DNA of 64,000 nucleotides from Rhynchopus sp. YZ270_cl-10 (lineage: Eukaryota; Euglenozoa; Diplonemea; Diplonemida; Diplonemidae). The stretch lies in NCBI GenBank assembly GCA_964035575.1, contig OZ037906.1, positions 1 to 64,000 of the forward strand, in the 5' to 3' direction. The number at the start of each line of letters is the position of its first letter. The first letter of the stretch is position 1. Below are positions 5,220 through 55,070 of the stretch, piece after piece. The position numbers and the translations under genes are program-made. Under the pieces are notes generated by a model, which ran no database searches, was not told the origin of the DNA, and saw only the letters and a list, made by a program, of their open reading frames with translations.

Positions 5220-5702
5220 ATATTTTTTTCTACCATGTCATCTCTCTCTTTAAATAAAAGAAATAACAATACGTTTGTGGGGTGTGGTTTTCTAGGGTTT
5301 CGGGTTTTTTCGTAGTAGTAGTATTTTAAAGTGTCTTCAATATTTTGGTAGTAGTAGTATTTTAAATCGTCTTGAATTTTTTGGTAGTGGTAGTATGCAG
5401 GTATTTTAAAACATCTTCAATCCGAAAAAAAAGAGCAATAAAAACAAAACAAAAAAAAAGAGAAAAATGTCACAACAAAAACAAAGAAAAGAATCTATAT
5501 TTTTTTTCCTTTTTTACAAAACATTTTACCCCTCCCAAATGACACACATCACAACAGAGTAGTAACAATATGTTAGAGTAAAATGAAATGGAAAAGGTGA
5601 GAGAGCATATTAGATAGTTGTAATCTAACATAATTACGCTTCAGGCACACCAGCCTGCTATCACACACACCAGCTAGATAACGATGGTTGCTCACTTCTC
5701 GT
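5220..5702. repeat. AT-rich spacer with three ~46-bp repeats
   Basis: Non-coding AT-rich DNA between the recombinase-like ORF and the octamer array. Three imperfect copies of a unit built on GTAGTAGTAGTATTTTAAA followed by a TCTTCAAT-like stretch lie at about 5310-5415. No gene is evident. Confidence 0.7.
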
Positions 5703-8700: not shown

Positions 8701-11700
8701 GGTTTGCGGGTTTGCGGGTTTGCGGGTTTGCGGGTTTGCGGGTTTGCGGGTTTGCGGGTTTGCGGGTTTGCGGGTTTGCGGGTTTGCGGGTTTGCGGGTT
8801 TGCGGGTTTGCGGGTTTGCGGGTTTGCGGGTTTGCGGGTTTGCGGGTTTGCGGGTTTGCGGGTTTGCGGGTTTGCGGGTTTGCGGGTTTGCGGGTTTGCG
8901 GGTTTGCGGGTTTGCGGGTTTGCGGGTTTGCGGGTTTGCGGGTTTGCGGGTTTGCGGGTTTGCGGGTTTGCGGGTTTGCGGGTTTGCGGGTTTGCGGGTT
9001 TGCGGGTTTGCGGGTTTGCGGGTTTGCGGGTTTGCGGGTTTGCGGGTTTGCGGGTTTGCGGGTTTGCGGGTTTGCGGGTTTGCGGGTTTGCGGGTTTGCG
9101 GGTTTGCGGGTTTGCGGGTTTGCGGGTTTGCGGGTTTGCGGGTTTGCGGGTTTGCGGGTTTGCGGGTTTGCGGGTTTGCGGGTTTGCGGGTTTGCGGGTT
9201 TGCGGGTTTGCGGGTTTGCGGGTTTGCGGGTTTGCGGGTTTGCGGGTTTGCGGGTTTGCGGGTTTGCGGGTTTGCGGGTTTGCGGGTTTGCGGGTTTGCG
9301 GGTTTGCGGGTTTGCGGGTTTGCGGGTTTGCGGGTTTGCGGGTTTGCGGGTTTGCGGGTTTGCGGGTTTGCGGGTTTGCGGGTTTGCGGGTTTGCGGGTT
9401 TGCGGGTTTGCGGGTTTGCGGGTTTGCGGGTTTGCGGGTTTGCGGGTTTGCGGGTTTGCGGGTTTGCGGGTTTGCGGGTTTGCGGGTTTGCGGGTTTGCG
9501 GGTTTGCGGGTTTGCGGGTTTGCGGGTTTGCGGGTTTGCGGGTTTGCGGGTTTGCGGGTTTGCGGGTTTGCGGGTTTGCGGGTTTGCGGGTTTGCGGGTT
9601 TGCGGGTTTGCGGGTTTGCGGGTTTGCGGGTTTGCGGGTTTGCGGGTTTGCGGGTTTGCGGGTTTGCGGGTTTGCGGGTTTGCGGGTTTGCGGGTTTGCG
9701 GGTTTGCGGGTTTGCGGGTTTGCGGGTTTGCGGGTTTGCGGGTTTGCGGGTTTGCGGGTTTGCGGGTTTGCGGGTTTGCGGGTTTGCGGGTTTGCGGGTT
9801 TGCGGGTTTGCGGGTTTGCGGGTTTGCGGGTTTGCGGGTTTGCGGGTTTGCGGGTTTGCGGGTTTGCGGGTTTGCGGGTTTGCGGGTTTGCGGGTTTGCG
9901 GGTTTGCGGGTTTGCGGGTTTGCGGGTTTGCGGGTTTGCGGGTTTGCGGGTTTGCGGGTTTGCGGGTTTGCGGGTTTGCGGGTTTGCGGGTTTGCGGGTT
10001 TGCGGGTTTGCGGGTTTGCGGGTTTGCGGGTTTGCGGGTTTGCGGGTTTGCGGGTTTGCGGGTTTGCGGGTTTGCGGGTTTGCGGGTTTGCGGGTTTGCG
10101 GGTTTGCGGGTTTGCGGGTTTGCGGGTTTGCGGGTTTGCGGGTTTGCGGGTTTGCGGGTTTGCGGGTTTGCGGGTTTGCGGGTTTGCGGGTTTGCGGGTT
10201 TGCGGGTTTGCGGGTTTGCGGGTTTGCGGGTTTGCGGGTTTGCGGGTTTGCGGGTTTGCGGGTTTGCGGGTTTGCGGGTTTGCGGGTTTGCGGGTTTGCG
10301 GGTTTGCGGGTTTGCGGGTTTGCGGGTTTGCGGGTTTGCGGGTTTGCGGGTTTGCGGGTTTGCGGGTTTGCGGGTTTGCGGGTTTGCGGGTTTGCGGGTT
10401 TGCGGGTTTGCGGGTTTGCGGGTTTGCGGGTTTGCGGGTTTGCGGGTTTGCGGGTTTGCGGGTTTTACGGGTTTACGGGTTTGCGGGTTTGCGGGTTTAC
10501 GGGTTTGCGGGTTTGCGGGTTTGCGGGTTTGCGGGTTTGCGGGTTTGCGGGTTTGCGGGTTTGCGGGTTTGCGGGTTTGCGGGTTTGCGGGTTTGCGGGT
10601 TTGCGGGTTTGCGGGTTTGCGGGTTTGCGGGTTTGCGGGTTTGCGGGTTTGCGGGTTTGCGGGTTTGCGGGTTTGCGGGTTTGCGGGTTTGCGGGTTTAC
10701 GGGTTTGCGGGTTTGCGGGTTTGCGGGTTTGCGGGTTTGCGGGTTTGCGGGTTTGCGGGTTTGCGGGTTTACGGGTTTGCGGGTTTGCGGGTTTGCGGGT
10801 TTGCGGGTTTGCGGGTTTGCGGGTTTGCGGGTTTGCGGGTTTGCGGGTTTGCGGGTTTGCGGGTTTGCGGGTTTGCGGGTTTGCGGGTTTGCGGGTTTGC
10901 GGGTTTGCGGGTTTGCGGGTTTGCGGGTTTGCGGGTTTGCGGGTTTGCGGGTTTGCGGGTTTGCGGGTTTGCGGGTTTGCGGGTTTGCGGGTTTGCGGGT
11001 TTGCGGGTTTGCGGGTTTGCGGGTTTGCGGGTTTGCGGGTTTGCGGGTTTGCGGGTTTGCGGGTTTGCGGGTTTGCGGGTTTGCGGGTTTGCGGGTTTGC
11101 GGGTTTGCGGGTTTACGGGTTTACGGGTTTGCGGGTTTGCGGGTTTGCGGGTTTGCGGGTTTGCGGGTTTGCGGGTTTGCGGGTTTGCGGGTTTGCGGGT
11201 TTACGGGTTTGCGGGTTTACGGGTTTGCGGGTTTGCGGGTTTGCGGGTTTGCGGGTTTGCGGGTTTGCGGGTTTGCGGGTTTGCGGGTTTACGGGTTTGC
11301 GGGTTTGCGGGTTTGCGGGTTTGCGGGTTTGCGGGTTTGCGGGTTTGCGGGTTTGCGGGTTTGCGGGTTTGCGGGTTTGCGGGTTTGCGGGTTTGCGGGT
11401 TTGCGGGTTTGCGGGTTTGCGGGTTTGCGGGTTTGCGGGTTTGCGGGTTTGCGGGTTTGCGGGTTTGCGGGTTTGCGGGTTTGCGGGTTTGCGGGTTTGC
11501 GGGTTTGCGGGTTTGCGGGTTTGCGGGTTTGCGGGTTTGCGGGTTTACGGGTTTGCGGGTTTGCGGGTTTGCGGGTTTGCGGGTTTGCGGGTTTGCGGGT
11601 TTGCGGGTTTGCGGGTTTGCGGGTTTGCGGGTTTGCGGGTTTGCGGGTTTGCGGGTTTGCGGGTTTGCGGGTTTGCGGGTTTGCGGGTTTGCGGGTTTGC

Positions 11701-12071
11701 GGGTTTGCGGGTTTGCGGGTTTACGGGTTTGCGGGTTTGCGGGTTTGCGGGTTTGCGGGTTTGCGGGTTTGCGGGTTTGCGGGTTTGCGGGTTTGCGGGT
11801 TTGCGGGTTTGCGGGTTTGCGGGTTTGCGGGTTTACGGGTTTGCGGGTTTGCGGGTTTGCGGGTTTGCGGGTTTGCGGGTTTGCGGGTTTGCGGGTTTAC
11901 GGGTTTGCGGGTTTACGGGTTTGCGGGTTTGCGGGTTTGCGGGTTTGCGGGTTTGCGGGTTTGCGGGTTTGCGGGTTTACGGGTTTGCGGGTTTGCGGGT
12001 TTGCGGGTTTGCGGGTTTGCGGGTTTGCGGGTTTGCGGGTTTGCGGGTTTGCGGGTTTGCGGGTTTGCGGG
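5703..12071. repeat. 6.4-kb octamer satellite (GCGGGTTT)n
   Basis: About 795 tandem copies of GCGGGTTT. Variant units are almost confined to the flanks. ACGGGTTT occurs at about 5750-5800, near 6485-6500 and repeatedly from about 10,465 to 11,970; short units (loss or gain of one or two bases) occur at about 6055-6230 and 6470. The ~4-kb core between roughly 6,505 and 10,460 appears perfectly homogeneous. All three frames on each strand stay open for kilobases because the unit contains no stop codon; the >2000-residue frames here are not genes. The right end passes directly into the OTU-LINE reading frame. Confidence 0.98.
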
Positions 12072-14416
12072 TCGCCCACCGCTCTCCGCACCGCATGGCA
12101 GGGGAGGAATAGCCGCCCTTCGCACACCACCCCAAAGCACCGCCCGTATGCCACCATGCGTTCTGCCTCCAGCTGTCGGGAGAGGTTCACCGCCGTCAAC
12201 AACAGAGTGGTCGCCTTCTGCTCCGACTCATGCTTAGCTGCGATGGCGTAATGCCTCTCGCAGCGTTGCCTGTCATACTCCGCCCGGAGCGACTCTCCTG
12301 CTTCGGGGTGCCGATCGCAGTCTTCCAAGTACTGCGCATGCATCTTCTTCGCGTCCTCTGCGAGTTCCCGCTTGTGCCTGGCGGTCAGCTCCTCCACACG
12401 ATGCCTGTCCGCCGCCTTCGCCTGGTCCAGACGCACATTCTGTTCCTCCAGGAAACGACTCAACTCCTGCTGGCGGTCGCCAAAAGTGCCCCGAAGCGCG
12501 GCCAAATCCGGTCCCCACGACCGACGATGCTCCCGCCGTACCTCCAGGGCTTGCTGCCACGCGTCCGACGCACGCTGCAACGCTTCCTTCTTCTCCTGGT
12601 CCGCCTTTTGTTGTTGCTGCTTCTGCTGTTTCCGTTGCTTCTCGTGCTTCTGCTGCTTCTGTTCTGCCTGCTGCCCCTCTTCGCCCGCCATTGGCATGTC
12701 TACCTCCTCGACGTCCTCGCCCTCGGGAGCTGGCACTGCTGGAGAAGGAGCCCGTTTAGGTGGTGGGTCTCCGCTCCCCTCCGCAGAGGCAGCCTGAGCC
12801 GGAACATTCGAGTGCAAAAAAGACAGGGCACTGAAATATTCCGCCCTGCCAATTTGCGACAGAGGGCAGTGCTTGGACCCCTGAGCGCAGTGCAGACATG
12901 CCAAGCCACCACACGTGTGACAGCAGAAGTGTGCGTCCGACGCATCGAAGAGCTTGCTGCATTGTTCGCACTGCAGGAAAGTGTTCGACGCCTCCGCCTC
13001 CCTCGCTCCCACAAAAGCCATGGGGCGCTCTGACTGGCACTCCCCCTTACCACCTGTGGCCTCAAAAGACAGGATGTGCTGCTGCAGAGCCGGGTCCATG
13101 GTGAGGGGCTCGTAGTGTCCCGGGATACTGCCGGATCCATCTGCCGCATCCTGGTCACCCGAGTGGAGGAGAAGGACCACTGCCTTAGGCCGTTTTCTTG
13201 GCACCATCAGAGAAGGGCGGGCGAACTCGTTGAGGATGACCACAGATACCTCAAGAGCCTCCCCTGCCCCCGCCACTGCAATGGCATCCGCCCACGTACG
13301 CTCGTCTCCTCTGTCCCCACTCGTCATCAGCCGCTGCCAGACCCCAAAATTAGGGACAGCCGCACTCGACAGATCAGCGCGGCCCTGGACCTTCTTCACT
13401 GCCGCCTGGCGCAGACCCTCCACCGACAAATCCGTGCGCCCAGTGGCGAAGAGCAAAGCCTCAAAAGCACAGTCCCCCGCCACAAACGACCAAGTCACCT
13501 TCGAGGCTCCCAGCTTGGCCGCCTGTTCCGTCGCCCGAGGCCTCTGCGCTGCCGGGCACTCACGCAAAAACTCCCACTCACGCACCACATCGAGACCCGG
13601 CCCTTCCGGAATCACGGTAGCCGAATCGAACCTCCCGGTCCGCTTCCTCGGTGGCTCCACGTGGTCCGGCTTCACGTCCCTCTTGCGCTTCCCCTGCTGC
13701 TCCTCCGACCGGTCTGGAGCAGGACGACTCATATCGTCGTCAGGGTTCGCATCATCACAGAGAGGTTCCACGGCCCCTGCACTGCGGCGTCCAAACCGGT
13801 CCATGTCCTCTGCAGACGGTGCCACATCTACCTCCACACACGGCTCCCGCTTCAGGGTGGCAATCCCTACACACATAGCACCCCGCTCCAGAAAGGAAGA
13901 TGCGACCTTTTTCTGGTACGCCACCGCAATGCTCTCCCGGATGCGCAACTCTGCCGACCCTGTCAGGTGCGACGTCTGTCCCGTCGTCAGGCCTCCAAGC
14001 TGCGCAATCAAGAGGTTCGCCTCGTCGCCTGCACCCCCGAAGGCTTCAAACACAATAGGGGAGAACTTGGTGTTGATCTTGTTCAAATCCCGCTCGTGCT
14101 TCTCCCGTTTGACCTGGCCCTGGTTCTTCGCCGACCAGCCCACAAACTTCGAGGCCCCTGTTCTGTAGGAAGGCAAGGTGGGGCACACGTGGGTGATGTC
14201 CAAACAACGAGGTCCATTTTCCGCCACTCCTACTGGGAGGTAGACGTCGCCTGGCCGCTTCTTCGACTCCAAATCCACTCTCACGGTCTCCTCCAAAGCA
14301 GGGTCCAAGCCCGCCCCTTGAGCCGCTCTGTACACCGAATCCCGCAAGGCGTTGTGGCGGGCGACGCGGTGTTTGGCGTAGGGGCAGCCAAAGGTGTGGT
14401 CGCCAAAGGAGTCCAT
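11897..14416 (-). CDS. Non-LTR retrotransposon C-terminal ORF fragment with OTU-like protease domain
   Basis: Minus-strand frame, 839 codons, the last ~50 of them inside the octamer array. Residues 1-180 (MDSFGDHTFGC, RHNALRD, KRPGDVYLP, CLDITHVCP) match the region downstream of the reverse transcriptase in many LINE ORF2 proteins. A basic NLS-like stretch (KRKR, PPRKRTGR) lies at about 242-262. Residues about 306-440 resemble an OTU cysteine protease: AGDCAFEALL with candidate nucleophile C316, a WADAIAVAGAGEALEVSVVIL strand-helix block, and GHYEPL with candidate H434. Next comes a Cys/His cluster at about 483-517 (CEQC, CCHTCGGLACLHC), then a Gln/Lys/Glu-rich coiled coil at about 575-750. 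The reverse transcriptase itself is missing. The 5' side is cut at a poly(T)-ended retroposon (14,425) and the 3' side dissolves into GCGGGTTT repeats at 12,072, so no 3' UTR is left. A homologous fragment lies at 41.2-42.1 kb. The OTU call is by motif only. Confidence 0.75.
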   Translation of the reverse strand: MDSFGDHTFGCPYAKHRVARHNALRDSVYRAAQGAGLDPALEETVRVDLESKKRPGDVYLPVGVAENGPRCLDITHVCPTLPSYRTGASKFVGWSAKNQGQVKREKHERDLNKINTKFSPIVFEAFGGAGDEANLLIAQLGGLTTGQTSHLTGSAELRIRESIAVAYQKKVASSFLERGAMCVGIATLKREPCVEVDVAPSAEDMDRFGRRSAGAVEPLCDDANPDDDMSRPAPDRSEEQQGKRKRDVKPDHVEPPRKRTGRFDSATVIPEGPGLDVVREWEFLRECPAAQRPRATEQAAKLGASKVTWSFVAGDCAFEALLFATGRTDLSVEGLRQAAVKKVQGRADLSSAAVPNFGVWQRLMTSGDRGDERTWADAIAVAGAGEALEVSVVILNEFARPSLMVPRKRPKAVVLLLHSGDQDAADGSGSIPGHYEPLTMDPALQQHILSFEATGGKGECQSERPMAFVGAREAEASNTFLQCEQCSKLFDASDAHFCCHTCGGLACLHCAQGSKHCPLSQIGRAEYFSALSFLHSNVPAQAASAEGSGDPPPKRAPSPAVPAPEGEDVEEVDMPMAGEEGQQAEQKQQKHEKQRKQQKQQQQKADQEKKEALQRASDAWQQALEVRREHRRSWGPDLAALRGTFGDRQQELSRFLEEQNVRLDQAKAADRHRVEELTARHKRELAEDAKKMHAQYLEDCDRHPEAGESLRAEYDRQRCERHYAIAAKHESEQKATTLLLTAVNLSRQLEAERMVAYGRCFGVVCEGRLFLPCHAVRRAVGDPQTRKPANPQTRKPANPQTRKPANPQTRKPVNPQTRKPANPQTRKPANPQTRKPANP

Positions 14417-23645: not shown

Positions 23646-24604
23646 GGGGTGGCATCAAAACAAAAAACGCGGACAATGTCCGCGTTTTTGGGGAATTTCA
23701 GACCCCCCCCTCCCCCCCCCAAAACGCGGACATTTTTTGTTTTTTTTCCCCCTATTTTTTGCTGGTTTTTGGGTGACGGGGTGCAAATTCGTGACCCAAA
23801 ACACAGTTTTTTGGCATTTCCGGAATCCGTCCAGAAAGTGGTGGGGTCAATCTCGAAAATTGGACAATTTTTTGACCACTTAAATTTTTGAAAATATGAG
23901 CCCGGTCACTAATACGTGGGGCCCATTTTCGGCCAAAAAATGCTGCTGAAAAAAATTTTCAGGTGAAAATTTTTCAGCCCCAAAACATGCCGCGATTGGC
24001 ATTTCCGGGATCTGTCCGCGCTGTGGTGGGGTCAATTTGCCGAAATGGCCAAGTTCTTGGTTTTGGTCAAAATGAGTGTAAGGTAAAGGGGCCAAGGTAA
24101 ATCCCACAACCCAGATTTTCTCTCTCTGATGCTGAAACCATGAAAATGTGCAAAAACACCGGCATTTGCATTTCCGGAATCCGTCCGTTCTGTGGTGGGG
24201 TCAATTTGCCAAAATGGACAAGTTCTTGATTTTGGTCAAAACCCGTCAGTGTAAGGTAAAGGGGTCCAAGTGTTTGCCTGTAGAAGCACATGGTAGCAGG
24301 GGTTTAAGGGCCCCCCATTCGTGTACATTTTGCAAAAAAACGCGGGCATCTTGTATTTTTTATTTTGCCCGAAAACACCGGCATTTGCATTTCCTGAATC
24401 CGCCGGTTCTGTGGTGGGGTCAATTTGCCGAAATGGACGAGTTTTTATAAATTTTGGTCAAAATCGTGTACGACCCCAGTGAAGAAAAAAATTTTCGAGG
24501 AAAAAAAACCCCCAAAATGTCCGCGTTTTCTGGAATTTCAGACCCCCCCCCTCCCCCCCCAAAAACGCGGACATTGTCCGCGTTTTTTGTTTTGATGCCA
24601 CCCC
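23646..24604. mobile_element. 959-bp MITE-like element with ~47-bp palindrome-bearing TIRs
   Basis: Both ends begin GGGGTGGCATCAAAAC in opposite orientation. The inverted match continues for about 47 bp and includes a palindrome, ACGGCGG-like in composition, whose arms (ACGCGGACA and TGTCCGCGT) are separated by one base. A second CGCGGACATTTT-type block follows inside each end after a C-tract. A 3-bp AAA flanks both ends, which is too short to prove a target duplication. The interior contains four copies of a ~70-bp module (about 23,813, 23,998, 24,163 and 24,380) with the core GTGGTGGGGTCAATTTGCC. There is no transposase, so it is non-autonomous. Confidence 0.75.
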
Positions 24605-27802: not shown

Positions 27803-28269
27803 GGGGTGGTGTATAAAAAATTTTTTCCCCACGGGTGTTGGAAAAAAAAATTTTTTTTTCGTTGGTGAGCTTTTTAACGCCGGCATTTGCATTTCCGGAA
27901 TCCGTCCGGCCAGTGGTGGGGTCAATTCGCCGAAATGGACAAGTTCTCGTTTTTGGTCAATTTCCGCAGAAAACACAGTATACACAGTATACACAGTATA
28001 CACAGTATACACAGTATACACAGTATACACAGTATACACAGTATACACAGTATACACAGCATACTCAGGGGGAAACTCACTTTGTGGGCGCCGCAGGCGC
28101 ACGGTACGCGTTTTTCGTGATTTTTTCCAGCCCCGTTCTGTGCGTTCTTTTGACTCAGCGAGTCGATTGCGTTCAACGGTGGGGTCACACATGGGTATGC
28201 AAGAGTGGAGGCGCGCCAACAGGGGGAGTGGAAAAACCAAGGTAAAAAAATGTTTTTATACACCACCCC
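27803..28269. mobile_element. 467-bp MITE-like element with 17-bp TIRs and (ACAGTATAC)n core
   Basis: Ends GGGGTGGTGTATAAAAA (27,803-27,819) and its complement (28,253-28,269) are perfect over 17 bp, with further partial match into T/A runs. The interior holds one copy of the GTGGTGGGGTCAATTCGCC module (about 27,883-27,962), a 9-bp ACAGTATAC microsatellite (27,970-28,060) and a GCA-loop hairpin followed by ACGGTACGC (28,088-28,100). A direct repeat of GGGTATTATTTAGCAGTTTG flanks it at about 27,755 and 28,277. It is non-autonomous and its GGGGTGG ends resemble those of the 959-bp element. Confidence 0.65.
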
Positions 28270-45735: not shown

Positions 45736-48540
45736 ACAAAAAAAAGTGTAGAGGAGGGTGGCGATGTTTACCACCTGGCAGGGGGGTGTATTTTGTGTGG
45801 GGAAAATGAGAAAGGTATTAGAAAAAGTGTTCTTTGTTTTGATGGAATAATCAGTAATCCCTCTTAATTTAAAGGAGAGAGAAAAAGCAGGTTTTTGAGG
45901 GTGTGTTGTGGCAAGTCGGCTGGGAAGAAGGGTTTGATCAAAACGAAGAAATAGGAAAGAGAAACTTACCAGAAAAGAATCTTAAAAACCGAACGGTGCC
46001 GTGTGTTTTATTTTTAGATAAAATCAGCAAACCCCATCAAAATCACTATATCCCAGGGGAGACAGGTTTGGTACCACAATGTCTCCCGAAGAGATAATGA
46101 ACGTCAATAAGTTGGCAAATCATCATTACCAAAAAAGACAACTCGATTTTTGACAATCAGAGACTTATCAATAAAACTGTTACAGTAGTCCAAAAAACCA
46201 TAGCAGATGGGGGGTAAACCCTCAGAGTTTGGACCCCAAAATGCATCTTAGTGGTTACCCTCTTATGTTCGTTAGCGCTGGAACCCTATTTCAGTCAGCG
46301 GTGGTGCTCCTTTGGACACTGTTTTATGTACTAAAAAAATTGTAGAAAATATTCGCATATTTTTTTTATGCGCAAGACGCCTTACCCTTGGCAACTCTCC
46401 CTTCATACACACCCACAAAATGGGCAATATTCCGAATGCGAGTGATAACCCAAACCTGAAACCATCACACATCCACCAGGAGCACTCTTCCACGCAGGCA
46501 TTACAGTGCGTTTACACATTCTCCACCACCTTACAACTTGAAAGATGATGGAATCATGTGTACACAGCCGTCGAAAGAGAAGTTGAAAGTGCAAAACGCC
46601 TCACCGTTCATCGGCGGACGCAGGGCACTGATTCTTCAGCCGTCAAAGAAATAAAGTTGACTTGAAATACAAAGCCCTTAGGCTTGACCTGCAAATTTAA
46701 AGAAGAAGGGGGAAAAAAAAACTAACTGAAAAACGCTGCAGCAAAGGGACCGAAGGGAGTACACCATGCTCATACAAACTACAAAGGTGATACAAAGGCA
46801 GTCCGTTGGCTTCTTAGGAAAGCACGCCCCTGGTCTGTTACAATAGCAAATCATTCGAATTTTGCTTTTTTGCAAGAACTTGAAAAATGGGTAATGTGCT
46901 TGGTACAAAACAACGAGATCTCAAGAAAAGAAAAGTTTATAGATGAACCTAAGCCTCTCGCGCTTAGTCTGATTAGGTTATTCTTTGGTTTATTCATCGG
47001 TCATTCAAATTCACTCTCGTGCTTAGTCTGATTAGATTACTCTGTGCTTAGTCACCTTGAAAAAAAAAAGAAAAAGAAACTGTGGTTGTTGCACCTGCGA
47101 CTGACCCACCCAGTCTCGGGCGCACACCCACGGGAAGGGCCCTGATCCACCAGGGCCTTAGTAGAATAAAGAGAAAGTTGAAAGTGCAAGAAACGCCTCA
47201 CCGTTCATCAGCAGACGCAGGCACTGAATAAATTAATGTGCCTCGTCCACATCCACAAAACAGAGCATCTCCTGCAGAGCAAACAAAATGCACAAAAAAA
47301 CACTACCTTTTTGCAGTGCTTTTTGAACAAAAAGCAACACGTTTTGGTTTACTTTTTAATTAGTTTTGGTGTCAATAACTGAGGTGCCCTCTAATCATTT
47401 GTTCAGGAAAACCACCATATTAGCGCCTTCGTTCTGGCGTTGAAAGCGCTGACCTAGAGTCTTTAAGCTTCAGTACGTTTTTTCTTCATTTTTTTTTTTT
47501 TTTTTTTTTTTGCCTTCTTTTTTGTTTCGTTCACGAAATGATATTTTTTTTAAACCCGGAGATATTAACCATCCTTTTCTTCTTGGAAAAAAAATGATGA
47601 CAAACGTGTAACCACTACTAAATGGGTTTTTTTTTACTTTTTCGATTTTGTCTTTCTTTTTGGTTGTATTAGTGTAGACACCTGAAGATGCGTCTCACTT
47701 TACCAAAATGCGCTCACTTTTCTTCTTTTTTTCCCTCAAGAGAGCGATGCAATCCCCTCTTTAGTATTTTCATCAAGGGGGAGTGCCTCTGCTTCTCTTC
47801 ACGACGACCTACTTATACCCGAAATATCACTTTAAAAAAACGTAATTTTTGGGAATAACTAGGTCACAGTGTTTATAAGTAACGTAGGGTGGGGGTAGGG
47901 GTAGGGGTGCGGGGTTGTAAAAGAAGATTGAAAAAAAAAAATCAAAATGTACGAATATTGTTCGTTTGTTGCTTTCTGTATGATCGAATGAAGGAAACCT
48001 TAGAAACGCCCCGACAACGCATCTAACAAAAGAGATCTCAACTTTTTTTGTAAAGTCGGTGCATTTGACAAAAAAACGCATAATGCACGAGAAAAAGGAA
48101 AAAAGAGAAAATTTGAAAGATGAATGTGCGCAGATCATAGAAAAATAAACGAACGCTGAAAAGCACTGCAGCAAAATTAAGCAAAAAAAATGCAAATCAG
48201 TGCATCAGAGTGCAGATGGGAGGGAATGGTTTAGGAAAAAGAAAAAAGAAAAAGAAAACTTGAAAGATGAGTGTCTCTCGTACACACATCAAAAAAAAAA
48301 AAAAAGGGAAAGAAAAAGGGAAGATGAAGCGAGCCCCAACGAGGGCTTTGCGTCTGCACCTTCGAGATAATAGAAAATAAAAAAATACTGTAAATCATTG
48401 GAAACAGTGTGTGGATACCGCCCCTCACTTTTCCATTTTTTAAATCGCTTTTTATAAATTAGCTTATTCCGCAAACCCGCAAATCTTTGGTTTGCAGCAG
48501 GGTAGATCCTTATTTTCGCTAAAAACGCTAAAAATCTCAG
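45736..48540. repeat. 2.8-kb gene-free AT-rich region with dispersed short repeats
   Basis: No gene is supported. Repeats seen: GTTGAAAGTGCAA(G)AAACGC plus CTCACCGTTCATC at about 46,572-46,620 and 47,172-47,220; further copies of the intergenic hairpin at 46,934-46,980 (CTAAGC and GCTTAG arms, GAACCTAAGCCTCTCGCGC) and two partial ones at 47,015-47,068; a T-tract at about 47,488; and GACTTGAAATACAAAGC (46,659), which recurs at 54,232. Small frames here have no coding character. Confidence 0.7.
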
Positions 48541-48550
48541 ATTTATTTTC

Positions 48551-49257
48551 CACGGCGTACGAAAGCGCTTGAAGCGTTTTTTTTTTTCGGGGGAAAAAAA
48601 AAGCACTTTTCGCTTGATGAAAAAAAAAAAGCGCTTTTTTTTTTTGTGTGGGGTTTTTGGTAAGGCGTACCTGTTCTCATGTTTTTTTTGATATTTTGGT
48701 TGTTTTTTTGCGTTGGGGTCAGCCCCGCCGCCAGGATTTTTGAGTTTTGAAAAACTTCTGTTGATGGTCCCAAAAAAAACCCCCTTCAATCGTAGCCTCC
48801 GGCAGAGAGACGAATATTACCCAAGCACAGTCAGAGTTCCTCCGAATCAGCGACATTCGCTCCTTCTCACTTCCTACCGGGCTGTTGTGCAGGAGGCATG
48901 TACATTGTACTCTTCCGTGGCCGGTGCAGGTGGCCGTGCACAAGCCGCAGTGGATGTCAGCCTTCTTATCAGTAAACAGCAGTCATGGCACCCAAAGGTT
49001 CCTGGCGAAGCCACGGTACGCAACATTTCTAAAAAATGTTGCCATAAAATGGCACTGCGTTCGTAATTTTTGTCAGAAAAATGCCCACAGCGGGAAATCG
49101 GCGACTCGATAAATTTGGTTTGGGTCACTTGTAGTGTGGACTTAAACCCCCTTAACAAACCCCTTCAGGAAAAAAAAGCGCTTTTTCCTAAAAATTCAAG
49201 CGCTTTTTTTTTTGAAAATTTCTCAAAAAACTCCTCGAAGCGCTTTCGTACGCCGTG
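48551..49257. mobile_element. 707-bp MITE with 20-bp TIRs and 6-bp target duplication
   Basis: TIRs begin CACGGCGTACGAAAGCG at 48,551 and end with the complement at 49,257; 20 bp match perfectly. ATTTTC occurs immediately outside both ends (48,545-48,550 and 49,258-49,263), a clean 6-bp target-site duplication. The interior has several AGCGCTT-plus-T-run blocks and, at 49,003-49,013, a TGGC-GAA-GCCA hairpin followed by CGGTACGCAACATTTC, a module repeated at 51.17 and 53.92 kb. There is no coding capacity. The superfamily is unclear: the CACGG end recalls EnSpm-like ends, but a 6-bp duplication does not fit them. Confidence 0.85.
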
Positions 49258-49426
49258 ATTTTCGTTTTTTTCCTTTTTTTTTCTCTCCCGTTTTTGAAAT
49301 TTTTCCGCGCAGGCCTGACGCTAACTTTCAGGTTTTTGGAAATCGTGGGGGTTGATGGTTTGTCCGCTCGCGCAGCGAGCGGAAAAATTGAGTGACGGCA
49401 GAGGTTTTTTTACGGGGGGGTGGGGG

Positions 49427-50253
49427 CAGTGTTGGCAGGGTTTAATACAGTTGTTTAAAACAGCTGTATTAAACTGTATTAAACACTGTATTAAACTCTT
49501 GAGATTTTAGGTTTAATACAGTTTAGTACAGGTTACTAGGTTTACTACAGAAAAAGTACGGTAAGACTTTCCCCTCACCTTCTCCAGCTAGTTTTTTTTT
49601 TTAAAGGTAATATTTAAAATTTACACCCGTTCCATTCCATACCAGAAAAAAAAGTGGTGACACACCTGAAGCGGGTGTGCACCGACTTCGACCTCGACGG
49701 GAAGGTCGCGTGCGTCATCGCAGATGGCGACGCGACCGTCCAGTCGGCGGCAAGTAAGCTGTGTGCTTACCTGGTGGAGGAGAAGGGGAACGAGCACCGT
49801 CCCCAGCGCATCGTCTGCGGTGCGCATTTGATGTCTCGGTGCATTAACGATTTAATCGGCACCAAGACACAAAACCGCACCGAGGTCGGCAACGAGTTCA
49901 ACTTCATCCTGAAGTTGGCCAGCGCCACCGTCTCCTCCATCAGAAATGTCGAGCGTATCGCACGGAAGTACGATGAATTGCAGACAGGGAGTGGACATCT
50001 TAGCAAGAAGCCGCCCCTCCCATGCATTACAGGAGCCGCATTTGACGAGTTCCTCAAGCACAAGCCCGCATTGCGGAGAAAATCAACATGTGACAGCAGT
50101 TAGCAAAGTCAAAAGATCACCCCCACTCACCAAAGCCCCCCCTTTACCATGTTCCCTGTACGTACACCCCTGCACTGTACTAAACTGTATTAAACTGTAC
50201 TAAACTGTATTAAACTGTACTAAACTTTTAGGTGCTGTATTAAACCAACACTG
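49427..50253. mobile_element. 827-bp hAT-superfamily derivative with perfect 8-bp TSD
   Basis: The left end CAGTGTTGGCAGGGTTTAAT and the right-end complement CAGTGTTGGTTTAATACAG give a hAT-type CAGTG terminus. GGTGGGGG lies directly outside both ends (49,419-49,426 and 50,254-50,261), a perfect 8-bp duplication as expected for hAT. Subterminal regions hold many copies of TTTAATACAG/CTGTATTAAA (49,438-49,545) and ACTGTACTAAACTGTATTAA units (50,175-50,245). The interior carries a fragment of transposase ORF (49,654-50,103). Far shorter than autonomous hAT elements (usually >2.5 kb), so it is an internally deleted, non-autonomous copy. The intact duplication and termini suggest recent movement. 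Confidence 0.9.
49654..50103 (+). pseudogene. hAT transposase fragment
   Basis: 149 residues without a catalytic C-terminus. VACVIADGDATVQSAASKL followed by RIVCGAHLMSRCINDLI matches the D-x-A-x-N/Q...C-x-AH-x-L block of the hAT RNase H-like domain, including the first catalytic aspartate and the CxxH-type motif. FILKLASATVSSIRNVERI matches the helix after it. The BED finger and the C-terminal dimerisation domain are missing. It lies inside the 827-bp element whose termini are intact. Confidence 0.8.
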
Positions 50254-50504
50254 GGTGGGGGGGGGTTTCACCCCCCCCCCACGATTTTTTTCCCGGCTTT
50301 TGGGGGGGTGAAAATAAAATTTTTTTTTGGAAAATAAAAAAAAAAATCTTGATGGTGTTCTCTTACTCTCCCCCCGATACCTTTCTCGCGCCCCAAGAAC
50401 CATCTAAGGGAGTTAGAGGGTGGGCGTGTTTTCCTAGAATTTGACGGACGGAGCTCGTAGAACCCCCCCCCCCGAGGAATGAGAAAAAAGGATAGGGCGA
50501 AATC

Positions 50505-51283
50505 ATAAAAGTAGCGTACCGTGCGCCTGCGGCGCAAGCTTACTGTAAATTGTATGACATGGTACTGGGTACTTAACTCAAAAAAGTGGACGGCATCTAA
50601 AAATTTCCGCCTGCGGCGCGGCAGCCCTTGACCCAGTTTCCCCCTTTTCTTGTTCAGTCGGCAGGATCACTTGGCCCTTACACTGATGTTGACCAAAAGC
50701 CAAGAACTTGTCCATTTCGTCAAATTGACCCCACCACAGCGCGGACGGATTCCAAAAATCCCCCACGAACCAGCTTCTCCAGGGGCTTCGCGCGCGAAGC
50801 GCGCGAAAAATTTTGCAACCCGAAAAACACCTCACCCCCCCTAAGGTCAAAAAAACCGGTCCCAAAAAAAACCTCTGAGTGACGGTCTAAAAAAAAAAAA
50901 TCCAACAAGCAGGTTGGTACTGTACTGAGGCAGAATAGTGGTGTTTTTTTACACATCTCAGCTGTCGTAGAACTAAACCCCAGGGGATAATATAGGTTTT
51001 GGGGGTTTTCTCTGAAACTCGGTCAAGCCCAACCCAGCTCGTTAGGGCCTCCGGCGGAATGTGAGAATTGCTCGGTTATCCTACTGCAGAGTTCGGCACT
51101 GTATTGATATTTGCACCAGGCACACGCAGTGACAGTATATTTACAAAAAGAAACGGCGGTCGTGGCACCCATGGCGAAGCCACGGTACGCAACATTTCAA
51201 AAAAATGCGCTCAAAATTGCACATTTTTACTGCCAAACAGGGCTGCAAGCTTGCGCCGCAGGCGCACGGTACGCTACTTTTAT
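50505..51283. mobile_element. 779-bp element with 37-bp perfect inverted repeats carrying GCA-loop hairpins
   Basis: ATAAAAGTAGCGTACCGTG at 50,505 and its complement ending at 51,283 are the outer part of a perfect 37-bp inverted repeat (50,505-50,541 and 51,247-51,283), with looser similarity for ~30 bp further out. Each arm contains a six-bp hairpin with loop GCA (arms TGCGCC and GGCGCA). The interior also has a TTCGCGCGC/GAA-loop hairpin (50,787-50,807), a TGGC-GAA-GCCA hairpin (51,172-51,182), and a minus-strand copy of the GGTGGGGTCAATTTG module (50,689-50,757). No target duplication was found. A homologous half-element lies at 53,770-53,990. Confidence 0.7.
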
Positions 51284-52503
51284 TCTTTCGTATGCTTCCT
51301 TTTCCTTCGGCATTTGAACAATTAAATCACATTCTGGCTGTGACCCTTGTCGGACACTGCGCCCTCTGACAAGGGTAATACTTTCTAGAAACATTCTGAA
51401 AAAAAGTGGTAGTGCCCGGCATTAGCAAGAAAATTTTCAAAATTAAATAGGCACCAGCAGTTTGGGTAGGCGAGACCGCATTGGGTGAACCTCCGCGAGC
51501 GCAGCGAGCGGAAATTTTTTTTCGCAGTTTTTGGGCAAAGTTCAAAATCCCACCAAAAATTAAGTGGGGATTTTCGACAACAATACTGGGGCCCTATGGG
51601 TTTTTGGATTTTGGCCTAACAGTGTTGTGTTTCTGCCTTGGTCCGGTTGAAGTCTTTATTACTGGATCTCATACTCCGTACAGGTGACTCATACCCGACC
51701 TTTAACACACACGCACTTCTTCGAAACCTCCACCTTCAGCACCAACCCTTTTACAATGGTCCGCTTTGCGGGTTTGTGGACATAGTAATTGTGTTCTTCA
51801 AAAATATGCTTCAAAATTGTCTTATGCAAGGTGACACTCATTGGTCCTTGTCTTATGAAGTGAAGACAAATATTAAAGGGGCATTGGCGGGCCGAAGGCC
51901 AGCCAAAAAAACGGTAGCGAACTTTTACTTTTTTTCCTTTTGGTTTTCCCCTTATTTTGACTTTCCGGATCGATTGCGGACCGTGGTGGTGCCACTCTGT
52001 GGCTGGAAATTAGTAGGTAACCAAAAAAATGGGCCAGAGAAAAAAGGAAAAAAAAAAAGGAAAAAAAAATAAAAAATCTCGAATCCTTATTTTCACTTTC
52101 GCTAAGGATCTACCCTGGTTTGCAGGTTTGCTTTTTTTTTTTTGCCGACTACCTCCCACCCATTCTCCCCCCACCACAAACAAGGAACCGGGTAATGTTG
52201 GCAATAATTTTATTAAAACCGCAAACGGTTCCTCATCAAAGAGTCTTATTTGTTGACCTCTTCCTTCCACAACCTTGCACCTTTGCACCTTGCAATATTA
52301 CCTGACTTTTGCACGATGCGCTTACTATTCCTTCCACAATCCCAATGTACCAACAACACAACACACATAACACCCCCCACAGGGAGACATTCAGTTTCTT
52401 TTCACCTTCAATATCGGCCCAAGGCCTTTTTCTGGTCCAAAAACCTTGCCACATCATCCCCTCCTCCTACCCTCCAATCCCCCAACAACACACACCTTAC
52501 CTT

Positions 52504-53484
52504 TCAGAGTGAAGAGGTGAAGGCACTCTGCACACTCCGCTCTTGGTCGTCTTCGCTGTTGGAATCGTCTTCGTTGATCGGGAGGAGCGCGTCTTTGTGC
52601 GTTTCTGCTGCGAACCACGAGATCACCCACGGGTAGAACTGCTGCAGCGGGTCGGTACCATAGACGATGGCGTTGAGAAGGCCTTGGAGGCGGGAGAAGA
52701 CTGTGTGCACCACGTAGAGGGGGAAGATCTCTATTGAAGGGTCGACCGCTTCGAGCAGACGTCGCACGGTGCCAAAGATCCAGCACACCACCAGCAGGGT
52801 AGGGTAGTAGCGCAGACGGCCCACCCGACTGATACCTGTGGACACACTCAGAACGGTGCCATGCTGTTCCAGGTGGCCTTTCATGTAGGCCCGCGTCACC
52901 TTCACGTAGACAACTATGTTGAACGCAATGATAATCCACAGCGGCGCGTAGAAGTAATACAGCCGTTTGTCTGGGTTCTGCACCCAGCACATCCCGTACC
53001 CTGCGTCACCGTAGTCGTCACGCGCCATGCCGATGATAGCAGGGATAAGCGGAAGCCCAAAGGAGACGGCAAAGTAGTACCAGAAGTAGTGCACACCCTT
53101 CTTCCCGGTAAGGTGCTTTGCGAAGACCGAGAGGAAGAGGCAGAGGGAGATGCAGCCTGTCCAGAAGATCGGGCAGAGCTCGGTGTAGGTGACGAGAAAG
53201 CCGAAGACGTTGCAGGCACCGTTGTTGAACTCATCGGAATGCACCAGGGAGGCAATCACTACTAGGTTCGACAGCAAATCAGACGCACTCAGACACATCA
53301 ACAGCCTCAGATGCGAACCTCCCTTCGCAAGCAAAGAAATGATCATCGCAGCAGACCCCAGCAAAGACAGCGAGCTCGGTGCAATCGTCGCAATCCTCAA
53401 TATATCCGACTGGTAGCCTGTGAAGTACGCTCCACTCGACGACGATTCAGTCGTGGCATTGTCGAATAAGAAATCCGGGTGCAT
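52504..53484 (-). CDS. Class E (cAMP receptor-like) seven-transmembrane receptor, 326 aa
   Basis: I start at MHPDFLFDNATTESSSS (53,484), which gives a short N-terminus with a possible N-glycosylation site (NAT); an upstream in-frame ATG would add an atypical 21 residues. Seven hydrophobic helices follow. Features of the Dictyostelium cAMP-receptor family: LRLLMCLSASDLLSNL in helix 2, a cysteine in ELCPIFWTGC, the extracellular GYGMCWVQNPDKRLYYFYAPLW, the helix-6 pattern RYYPTLLVVCWIFGTVRRL, and QGLLNAIVYG in helix 7. The tail is acidic and Ser-rich (DDSNSEDDQERS), suited to phosphorylation. It probably couples to heterotrimeric G proteins at the plasma membrane; ligand unknown. An inverted-repeat element begins within ~40 bp of the start codon. 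Confidence 0.88.
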   Translation of the reverse strand: MHPDFLFDNATTESSSSGAYFTGYQSDILRIATIAPSSLSLLGSAAMIISLLAKGGSHLRLLMCLSASDLLSNLVVIASLVHSDEFNNGACNVFGFLVTYTELCPIFWTGCISLCLFLSVFAKHLTGKKGVHYFWYYFAVSFGLPLIPAIIGMARDDYGDAGYGMCWVQNPDKRLYYFYAPLWIIIAFNIVVYVKVTRAYMKGHLEQHGTVLSVSTGISRVGRLRYYPTLLVVCWIFGTVRRLLEAVDPSIEIFPLYVVHTVFSRLQGLLNAIVYGTDPLQQFYPWVISWFAAETHKDALLPINEDDSNSEDDQERSVQSAFTSSL

Positions 53485-53521
53485 CGTTGTGCCCCCCCAA
53501 TCCTTCTGTCGTGTGGACAGT

Positions 53522-54182
53522 GTTTCCGCTATGAAGATATGACCCAAAAAATCTTCAAAAAAAAAAAAAAATCTGGGATTTTCCCGTTTTTTCCCATGAA
53601 GATATCTTCATGAGAAAAAAAAAAAACCCAGAAAAAAAGGGGAGGCAGGGCGTCGCGCGCGCGCGAAGCGCGTTTTATCCCCTTCCTGGTATCATTGTGA
53701 AGAGGATATAGCGAGGTAAAGTTTCAGACCGTGCCCCCAATTCCCTCAATCTTTGCACCATTTGACAAAGAGTGAGAATAAGGGATCGACAAAAATAAAA
53801 AAAGTAGCGTACCGTGCGCCTGCGGCGCAAAACTTATGAGCGGAATCCCACACCCTCTACCATAGTTTGTCTGTAAAAATGGTTGATTTTAAGTCACAAT
53901 TTTTGAAATGTTGCGTACCGTGGCTTCGCCAAAAAGTTTTGATATTATGAGATCCGCCGTTTCTTCTTGTACTGAGGGAAGGCAGGCGTAGAAAAAACAT
54001 GAGAAAAAGGGTTGGTTTGGTTCTTGATTTACATTACCATCCCACGTCATCACGTATTTACCTGAAATGGACGGACCTTTTCGCGCGGAGCGCGAAAAAA
54101 TTTTTTTGACCCCTTTTTGGACATATCTTCATATCTTCACGGTTTTGGAAAAAAAAAATTTTCCATGAAGATAAGCGGAAAC
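53522..54182. mobile_element. Candidate inserted element between two halves of a palindrome
   Basis: GTTTCCGCT (53,522-53,530) followed by ATGAAGATA (53,531-53,539) on the left, and ATGAAGATA (54,165-54,173) followed by AGCGGAAAC (54,174-54,182) on the right. The outer 9-mers are exact complements and the inner 9-mers are direct repeats. Either a 625-bp sequence inserted into the loop of a hairpin with a 9-bp target duplication, or the outer 9-mers are TIRs of a 661-bp element. The interior includes a CATGAAGATATCTTCATG palindrome, two GNA hairpins of the AAAATTT/GCGCG type and a segment homologous to one half of the 50.5-51.3 kb element. It sits 38 bp upstream of the GPCR start. Confidence 0.5.
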
Positions 54183-55070
54183 CCTGCGTGTGGATTGAAA
54201 ATAAATAAAATTGAAAAACTGGAGGAGAAGTTGGCCTGAAATACAAAGCTCTCTCGTGTACCTTAGTGGGTTGGGAGCTGTGGTGGACACCCACGACAAG
54301 ACAAAAAAAAAAAAAAAGGAAAAAAGGGAGAGAGTGAGGGGGGAGTACTTCTTTCATGAACGGTTAACTAACATATGTGTAGGGTGGGGAAAACATGTGA
54401 CGGTTTATCGAAAAACGCAAAAAAAAGCACATCCTAAGCATGATTGCGTTTGTGGTCGAGAGTAATATGGAGTTTATCTGGGGGGGTTGGTCGCAAACGC
54501 CTCTTGTGTGAGGACCGTAAGGCAGCGAAGAAATAATCCGTAAGGATGTCTTAAATGTTAAAATAAAGACGAAGTGGGAGCAGTGCAACGAAAGAGTACT
54601 CTTTGGGTGCACGCGTTACAACGCAAAGAGACAAAAGAAATGATTTTGAGAATGAAAAAAGAAATCTAAGAAAAGATGGGAGCTTTGTCCAAAGAAAAGA
54701 GCAGGTAGAGGTTGCAATCCTAGCCTTCTCGGGCCTAACCTTAACCCAAAGAAAGCTTGAGACAGAGGAGGGGAGGGTGTCATGACACCATCTGAATGGT
54801 TGTGGCAACATTTTATTTGACATCTAATGGTTTCACACTAGCTCCAAAGCCAGGCCACACATTCCCTAAACATGATGTGCCACGTGGGCGAGTAAATGGG
54901 TAAATGAAAAGAATCACAAAACCTGAGCCACCTCGCAGTGCACAAATCATCTACAAAACCAAAAAGAGCCTTTTGTGAAAAAGACTGGGCAAGGAAAAGA
55001 TCGACGTTACGGGTGCATTTATAATGGCCTTCTGAGCACATCACAGACATTGTTTACTTTTTCAACTCCT
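54183..55070. other. Intergenic region without a recognised gene
   Basis: AT-rich DNA containing the 3' region of the giant ADP-ribosyltransferase gene. GTTGGCCTGAAATACAAAGC near 54,230 and GCAAACGCCTC near 54,491 are dispersed repeats seen also at 46.66 and 38.97 kb. Nothing else identified. Confidence 0.6.

Follow-up and report, generated by a model that had tools for sequence, protein, structure and literature searches.

C-GNA-G triloop hairpins with varied, pairing-conserved stems in nested transposons, tandem arrays and a satellite of one genome

Thirteen short hairpins lie between positions 49,003 and 54,098 of the window analysed in this study, which is the first 64 kb of contig C74 in a genome of 152.4 Mb and 126 contigs, and one more lies at 28,088; the DNA is taken to be that of a protist nucleus. 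As a preliminary description of the window had reported, all of them have a three-base loop of the type G-N-A (GNA) closed by a C-G pair, and they are not the only triloop palindromes there. They belong to a class with a GC-rich stem of varied sequence in which pairing is kept, a C-G-closed GNA triloop and, often, two GA dinucleotides facing each other in the stem (GA.GA), usually, when read along the GNA strand, with a 3' flank richer in A/T than the 5' one. Within this one genome the class recurs in many families of transposons, in tandem arrays and in a satellite close to the end of a contig.

The hairpins were found by a scan for perfect triloop hairpins and by reading the sequence by eye across 48.7-54.5 kb, and the borders of their carriers by a search for terminal inverted repeats (TIRs) with 8-bp target site duplications (TSDs) together with alignment to other copies. 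The host element, E1 (48,498-52,117, + strand), is hAT-like, with TIR CAGGGTAGATCCT and TSD GTTTGCAG; two insertions interrupt it, and five other copies (L002 and L004-L007) are flanked by five different TSDs. Five hairpins belong to E1 itself, all on the + strand: TCCGCTCGC-GCA-GCGAGCGGA (49,363-49,383), TGGC-GAA-GCCA followed by CGGTACGC (51,172-51,182; this unit is doubled in copies L003-L008), TGCGCC-GCA-GGCGCA with CGGTACGC (51,252-51,266), TCCGC-GA-GC-GCA-GC-GA-GCGGA (51,492-51,512), recognized by reading the sequence, and TTGGCGGGCC-GAA-GGCCAGCCAA (51,884-51,906). The fourth of these had been described as a stem held by opposed GA mismatches, and GA does face GA in it (T-CCGC-GA-GC-GCA-GC-GA-GCGG-A); the fifth keeps, as described, nine pairs around a single mismatch, which is itself G.A. 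A 425-bp miniature inverted-repeat transposable element (MITE) with a TA duplication, TIR CCGTCTTTTGAAAAA and a GAA hairpin near its centre occupies the same insertion place in two E1 copies (L004, 870-1320, and L006).

One of the two insertions in E1 is a 707-bp MITE (48,551-49,257; uninterrupted in L007) with TIR CACGGCGTACGAAAGCGC and a 6-bp flanking duplication, ATTTTC, which contains one hairpin, TGGC-GAA-GCCA with CGGTACGC (49,003-49,013, +). The other is a 1,479-bp nested insertion (49,399-50,877, +) with TIR CAGAGGTTTTTTT and 8-bp TSD AGTGACGG. It holds a hAT-like fragment element (49,427-50,253, +) with GGTGGGGG at both sides, whose open reading frame (ORF) at 49,654-50,103 has no Pfam match and is hAT-like by eye only, and three hairpins: TGCGCC-GCA-GGCGCA then CGGTACGC (50,522-50,536, - strand), CGCC-GCA-GGCG (50,608-50,618, -) and TTCGCGCGC-GAA-GCGCGCGAA (50,787-50,807, +). 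The last of these could also fold in a shorter register with loop AAG, as (CG)n stems can pair in a shifted register with a different loop (50,791). A 779-bp element had been proposed here. As the DNA on either side of 49,399-50,877 is contiguous in other copies, the hairpin at 50,522 belongs to the insertion and that at 51,252 to E1; most likely, judging from these alignments, there is no such element, and the inverted repeat behind it consists of a hairpin from the insertion matched to a hairpin from E1.

The remaining four hairpins lie in F1 (53,518-54,186, +), a hAT-like MITE with TIR CAGTGTTTCCGCT/CAGGGTTTCCGCT, 8-bp TSD CGTGTGGA and related copies L029 and L030: CGCGC-GAA-GCGCG (53,660-53,672, +), TGCGCC-GCA-GGCGCA with CGGTACGC (53,815-53,829, -), TGGC-GAA-GCCA with CGGTACGC (53,921-53,931, -) and TTTTCGCGC-GGA-GCGCGAAAA with AATTTTTTT (54,078-54,098, +). 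E1 and F1 are non-coding as far as seen. The hairpin at 28,088-28,100 (GCGCC-GCA-GGCGC with ACGGTACGC, +) was found by the triloop scan, and the TIR/TSD scan gave no enclosing element for it.

With five hairpins in E1, one in the 707-bp MITE, three in the insertion and four in F1, all 13 are internal to larger elements that have their own TIRs and target duplications, and these carriers explain the spread of the hairpins. This bears on the earlier suggestion that they might be free-living mobile mini-hairpins, comparable to REP elements or GC clusters, that insert by themselves into transposons. Such mobility could account for the recurrence of the same cassettes, e.g., hairpin plus ACGGTACGC, in different elements, and for the hairpin at 28,088. 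We consider it very improbable: besides the internal position of all 13 hairpins, the model of the IS200-type Y1 transposase (PF01797) gave no match in the genome, a model that detected its target in five of 14 control genomes and that divergent HUH enzymes would escape, duplications around single hairpins not having been searched for systematically.

Among the 13 hairpins, an uninterrupted stem of at least 5 bp is present in seven, and the other six have 4-bp stems or mismatches. The scan of this stretch for triloop palindromes with stems of at least 5 bp returned 16, of which seven are C-GNA-G. One of the other nine is the shifted register of the hairpin at 50,787, and in two, at 49,899 and 50,257, the loop is of the GNA type but its closing pair is A-T. 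No Rfam match above the gathering score was obtained in the window.

The preference for GNA loops was assessed in an unbiased sample of 20 stretches of 10 kb (200 kb) at preset places, with dinucleotide shuffles as the control, and by pattern counts over all 152.4 Mb, in which the breakdowns by loop and stem come from the matches listed only. With stems of at least 5 bp, the sample contained 14 C-GVA-G hairpins (V, A, C or G) versus 3.8 in the shuffles, a fourfold excess, and 89 hairpins with all other triloops versus 106.5; the window alone contained 8 versus 1.8. The preliminary description would have fallen if GNA loops were no more frequent than other triloops. That outcome was not observed, though the excess in the unbiased sample is modest and mostly due to GCA. 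Some other loop classes also exceed the shuffles, such as CAGGG at stems of at least 4 bp in the window (15 versus 1.6), and by a cruder count GNA accounts for 6 of 22 triloops with stems of at least 7 bp.

The decisive evidence is the genome-wide pattern counts, which are sharper than the sample. When the stem of the hairpin at 54,078 was fixed and the loop left free (TTTTCGCGC-NNN-GCGCGAAAA), 351 of 352 sites had a GNA loop; the 100 GNA sites listed were GAA 40, GGA 37 and GCA 23, with no GTA. The shorter stem TTCGCGC has loops starting with A or C, on either strand, at two places. The stem family of the hairpin at 49,363, CCGCTCGC-NNN-GCGAGCGG, has 127 sites, and all 50 matches listed carry GAA or GCA. 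A frame blind to both stem and loop, with C..G as its closing pair, matches at 422 sites; the 50 matches listed are without exception perfect palindromes, each with a GVA loop and one of three stems, CGCGC, CCGCC or CCGGC. The same frame closed by G..C occurs at one site genome-wide, which is no palindrome, and with loops of four to six bases it occurs at seven sites genome-wide, none of them GNRA or UUCG. A reversed control of the C..G frame gave 38 sites of the form AAAA-SSSS-G-NNN-C-SSSS-TTTT (S, G or C), which is above our chance expectation.

The stems vary in sequence and keep their pairing. The pattern SSSGAGC-NNN-GCGASSS has 1,854 matches, and 94 of the 100 listed have GNA loops (GAA 57, GCA 25, GTA 12, GGA 0); in 93 of these 94 the outer arms are complementary, in four kinds (CGC 63, GCC 20, CCC 9, GGC 1), and a fifth outer arm, ACC..GGT, is found in L010. 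The pairing-blind pattern SSSNN-GC-GNA-GC-NNSSS has 5,530 matches. Outer arms are complementary in 76 of the 100 listed, and the middle positions of these 76 are Watson-Crick in 52, GA.GA in 21 and otherwise in 3, which makes GA.GA 21 of the 24 mismatched sites; a single satellite, located where contig C1 begins, supplies 21 of the 52 Watson-Crick sites. The 24 listed matches with unpaired outer arms look like background. For both patterns, the reversed-pattern control is not independent, because GA.GA sites match it in a shifted register. When distinct arm pairs were counted, with the GC-GNA-GC core and the outer S bases fixed, 9 of 31 were fully paired (Watson-Crick or GA.GA) against a shuffle mean of 0.65, and none of 20,000 shuffles reached 9. 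In 102 units within four mismatches of one consensus, palindromic units being counted on both strands, the middle positions are GA/GA in 61, TC/GA in 27, GC/GC in 8 and other in 6; in array L087, units of the GA.GA and the GC.GC kind occur together. Structural work indicates that, in a 5'-CGAG-3' context, tandem sheared G.A pairs do roughly as well in DNA as Watson-Crick pairs. The proposal that structure rather than sequence is conserved is supported by the 351 GNA loops among 352 sites, by complementary variation of the stems and by GA.GA in the place of Watson-Crick pairs.

The same combination occurs in tandem DNA. The satellite near the start of C1 has hairpins of the form GCG-GA-GCGGGCGC-GAA-GCGCCCGC-GA-CGC, with GA.GA in a different sequence, beside (GCGGGTTT)n repeats. 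This satellite, of about 1,026 bp, was viewed at C1:700-2100 (L433), and pattern matches extend over C1:839-15829; in it, (GCGGGTTT)n blocks that may be telomere-like take turns with AT-rich DNA and with GAA hairpins in pairs, 59 bp apart. L069 (C4:290700-291650) is a tandem array with 13 GA.GA hairpins and a unit length of 39-41 bp; the stem is nearly constant from unit to unit, whereas the central base of the loop switches among A, C and T. L075-L081 are fold-back elements that appear by eye as one long imperfect palindrome with a GNA tip, and CGAG lies opposite CGAG again lower in the stem (e.g., L076 and L080).

A neutral origin of these palindromes has to be considered at this point. Template switching at fold-backs could make or perfect palindromes, and GNA would then be a mutational attractor that is copied along with the elements. 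On this view only palindromes with the most stable loops would fold often enough, and GNA is the stable DNA loop class; among the 102 units, variation is greatest at the central base of the loop (1.72 bits), and the 39-41-bp array units vary in number and in loop base, all of which would be expected from such a process. However, templated correction should erase mismatches, yet GA.GA has been kept in 93 of the 100 matches listed (1,854 in total) and with five outer stems. This weakens the earlier suggestion of replication fold-back products, and we regard the neutral origin as improbable.

The range of carriers was examined from 20 contexts of the TTTTCGCGC class (out of the 352 sites), which form seven families by eye and by the Basic Local Alignment Search Tool (BLAST). 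Their loops are GGA, GAA, GCA, GGA, GCA, GCA and GAA, one loop per family, so loops differ between families and not within them. Two of the families, F3 and F5, show 78% identity across 128 bp, and an upstream hairpin module is common to several of the seven. A clustering of 146 hairpins from this genome, a set partly chosen for GNA, gave 23 clusters, with GAA in 13, GCA in 7, GGA in 7 and GTA in 1, and in 17 of the 23 the A/T content is higher in the 3' flank than in the 5' flank; this clustering is crude, as 77 of the 146 hairpins were lumped into one cluster. Copies inside one family are not independent, and counts of sites reflect shared descent.

A short TIR beginning with CA and an 8-bp TSD, as in hAT elements, are found in E1, F1, the nested insertion and F4; the 707-bp MITE, whose duplication is 6 bp long, and the insertion of 425 bp in L004, with its TA duplication, are of other kinds. 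F4 is an autonomous hAT element of 3,368 bp with TIR CAGGGTCCTCAACC, duplication AATACAAC and an ORF of 948 residues. Its hairpin starts 176 bp past the stop codon, lies 70 bp short of the 3' end, has GNA on the sense strand and is directly followed by T9. Another autonomous family, L431/L432, with frames 612 and 1008 residues long, is 90-92% identical to F7 over about 150 bp, and its hairpin lies about 290 bp past the stop codon on the sense strand, followed by T9, 58 bp before the end. Across the genome the hAT C-terminal dimerisation domain is matched 139 times, among others in copies of F4 next to the hairpin. Seven further hAT families are distinguished by frame length only. In six of these (1066, 891, 671, 741, 275 and 140 residues) no C-GNA-G hairpin with a stem of at least 4 bp was found from the domain to the element end, the 275-residue family, whose end is unclear, being searched within 1 kb; hairpins in loci of the 741-residue family lie past the element end. 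The 1107-residue family, for which no element end was found, has only a hairpin with a 4-bp stem.

The position of the hairpins in the two autonomous families could also indicate a role in RNA, in which a stem-loop in the 3' untranslated region (3'-UTR) followed by a U tract ends or stabilizes transposon transcripts and has spread with the elements. In both families the sense strand has the hairpin downstream of the stop codon with T9 after it, a placement that a role in RNA would also predict and that weighs against a role in DNA. In each of the seven TTTTCGCGC families, moreover, the GNA strand has a run of five to ten T after the hairpin, behind the stem's A4. Several observations do not fit this explanation: GNRA or UUCG tetraloops would be expected, yet the frame has 7 sites with loops of four to six bases versus 422 with triloops; the triloop fold is not the minimum under RNA parameters; both orientations occur within one MITE (53,660 on the + strand and 53,815 on the - strand); hairpins also occur in the 13-unit array and in the satellite; and no T run directly follows the hairpin in five TTTTCCGCC contexts. 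That the loop is so strictly of three bases, and that tetraloops are almost lacking, argues for DNA rather than RNA, and a role in RNA seems to us unlikely.

Viral and prokaryotic contigs were also searched. TTTTCGCGC-GNA-GCGCGAAAA has no match in the viral contigs, and on a comparable stem, TCGCGCGC, GNA makes up 4 of 66 loops in these contigs, with no excess; the GNA excess is hence not general. The GA.GA stem with a free loop gave 26 GNA loci among the 80 viral matches listed. The GA.GA motif is not confined to the genome studied here, and a GNA excess is present with it in viral contigs too; many of the viral matches with other loops look like chance in GC-rich DNA. Eleven IMG/VR loci (L089, L093, L097, L102, L106, L108, L113-L115, L124 and L127) are contigs of uncultivated viruses sharing one stretch, which in L089 has three successive GNA hairpins between long frames (GA.GA twice, then GGCGCC-GCA-GGCGCC), and L107 has a GA.GA hairpin followed by AAAAATTTTT; the contexts in L089 and L107 appear intergenic. 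In bacterial and archaeal contigs (257 Gb), GCCGAGC-GNA-GCGAGGC has at least 120 matches, and since a rough chance estimate is about equal to this number, nothing is concluded from them.

We lean, by little more than an even chance, to the notion that it is the single-strand fold of these DNA mini-hairpins, and not their sequence, that is being kept. DNA hairpins become extremely stable when a loop of the GNA type is combined with two or more G-C pairs, according to passages of PMC4686876, and parts of PMC6479982 report that the GAA loop melts 6 °C above GTA. Negative supercoiling or replication may expose the GNA strand, which would then snap into a very stable hairpin with a sheared G.A pair across the loop and tandem sheared G.A pairs in the stem. 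The complementary TNC strand would not fold, and the hairpin might therefore act in the cell as a directional DNA signal beside the genes or ends of the element. With less confidence, a structure-reading protein or the transcription or replication machinery may act on the hairpin, much as the virion RNA polymerase of phage N4 does, and the element may benefit through control of its gene ends, opening of chromatin or amplification.

Several points weigh against this view. In the 200-kb sample at stems of at least 5 bp, the excess is confined to GCA (11 versus 1.2), with GAA at 2 versus 1.8 and GGA at 1 versus 0.8. Energy parameter sets for DNA and for RNA give GNA loops no bonus; a ranking by energy is uninformative, because these sets lack a loop-specific term for GNA. 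The order of stability is followed only partly: the lower stability of GTA compared with GAA fits the absence of GTA among the 100 TTTTCGCGC matches listed and does not fit the GA.GA class, in which GTA makes up 12 of the 100 matches listed and GGA is absent. A hairpin 3' of the transposase gene is found in two of nine hAT families, and the other seven are without one, which indicates that hAT elements can move without it. Most copies are explained by descent, and the case therefore rests on two dozen families at most, not on thousands of sites; crude clustering of the sequences suggests about 23. Finally, what the sequences show is the constraint, the covariation and the carriers, whereas extrusion, a strand asymmetry in the cell, a protein reader and any effect on fitness are inferred.

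A broader version of the same idea, which we hold to be doubtful, is a DNA-structure code in a eukaryotic nucleus, by which transposons, arrays and satellites would have converged on, or exchanged, one foldable motif that is read by a protein independently of sequence. The motif would consist of the C-GNA-G tip, the tandem G.A pairs in the stem and the adjoining A/T tract, and its reader would be a protein of the host or of a transposon; we likewise consider this unlikely.

If the hairpins are kept for their fold in DNA, they bear on an old dispute about the existence and relevance of short DNA hairpins and cruciforms in eukaryotic chromosomes, in which, as passages of PMC6420913 present it, the extrusion of short palindromes is "highly improbable" to some and has been reported by others. 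Pairing kept by compensatory change, including opposed G.A pairs and a loop class known from DNA chemistry, would provide many natural test sites within one genome, and a simple signature for other genomes: the GNA share of triloops at a fixed stem, with GA.GA as the favoured mismatch.

Other features of the window are of different kinds. Two palindromes with 12-bp stems, AAAAACGCGGAC-(AAT/ATT)-GTCCGCGTTTTT, at 23,663-23,689 and 24,561-24,587, are inverted copies and not of the GNA kind. At 1,663-3,381 and 5,684-12,251, overlapping ORFs recur with a 341-bp step, and three frames of more than 2,100 codons are open side by side on the same strand; these look like coding tandem repeats. One protein encoded in the window has a Dictyostelium-type cAMP receptor domain, and the named close matches of one other protein are mostly from oomycetes and diatoms. 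Protein searches gave distant relatives only, the best at 49% identity, and the genome is regarded as stramenopile-like.

No report of such a hairpin class was found among the top-ranked titles of literature searches, and the terms "GNA", "GAA" and "loop sequence" are absent from the main text, as far as available, of a 2026 survey of inverted repeats (PMC13155455). Several of the carriers share CA...TG ends, the 8-bp TSD and, in autonomous copies, the dimerisation domain with hAT transposons and MITEs; to our knowledge, a GNA hairpin is not part of the definition of hAT elements. Helitrons, IS200/IS605 and REP/RAYT are also mobile elements with DNA hairpins; there the hairpins are terminal, and HUH enzymes cut or bind them, whereas the elements described here have TIRs and TSDs and no Y1 transposase was found in the genome. 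The GC clusters of yeast can be likened to these hairpins, from titles only, as dispersed multi-copy hairpins. The repetitive hairpin elements of sponge mitochondria, as described in parts of PMC2800124, are likewise dispersed in several to many copies and GC-rich in some sponges; however, their stems are kept and their loops vary, whereas here the frame of the loop is fixed and the stems vary. The promoter hairpins of the phage N4 virion RNA polymerase, according to passages of PMC4496689, share with those described here the short stem, the three-base loop with 5' G and 3' A, the C-G closing pair, the strand asymmetry and the sheared G.A in the loop; their extrusion at physiological supercoiling requires the C-G closing pair, the loop G and the loop A, all of which our hairpins have. 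In N4 there are three early phage promoters and a known polymerase, whereas here many hairpins with varied stems and GA.GA lie in eukaryotic transposons and satellites. The d(GCGNAGC) mini-hairpins of Hirao and Yoshizawa, as cited in passages of PMC4686876 and PMC6479982, have the same loop class and the same GC-GNA-GC core; they are known from synthetic oligonucleotides, whereas the hairpins of this genome form a natural, covarying and genome-wide class.

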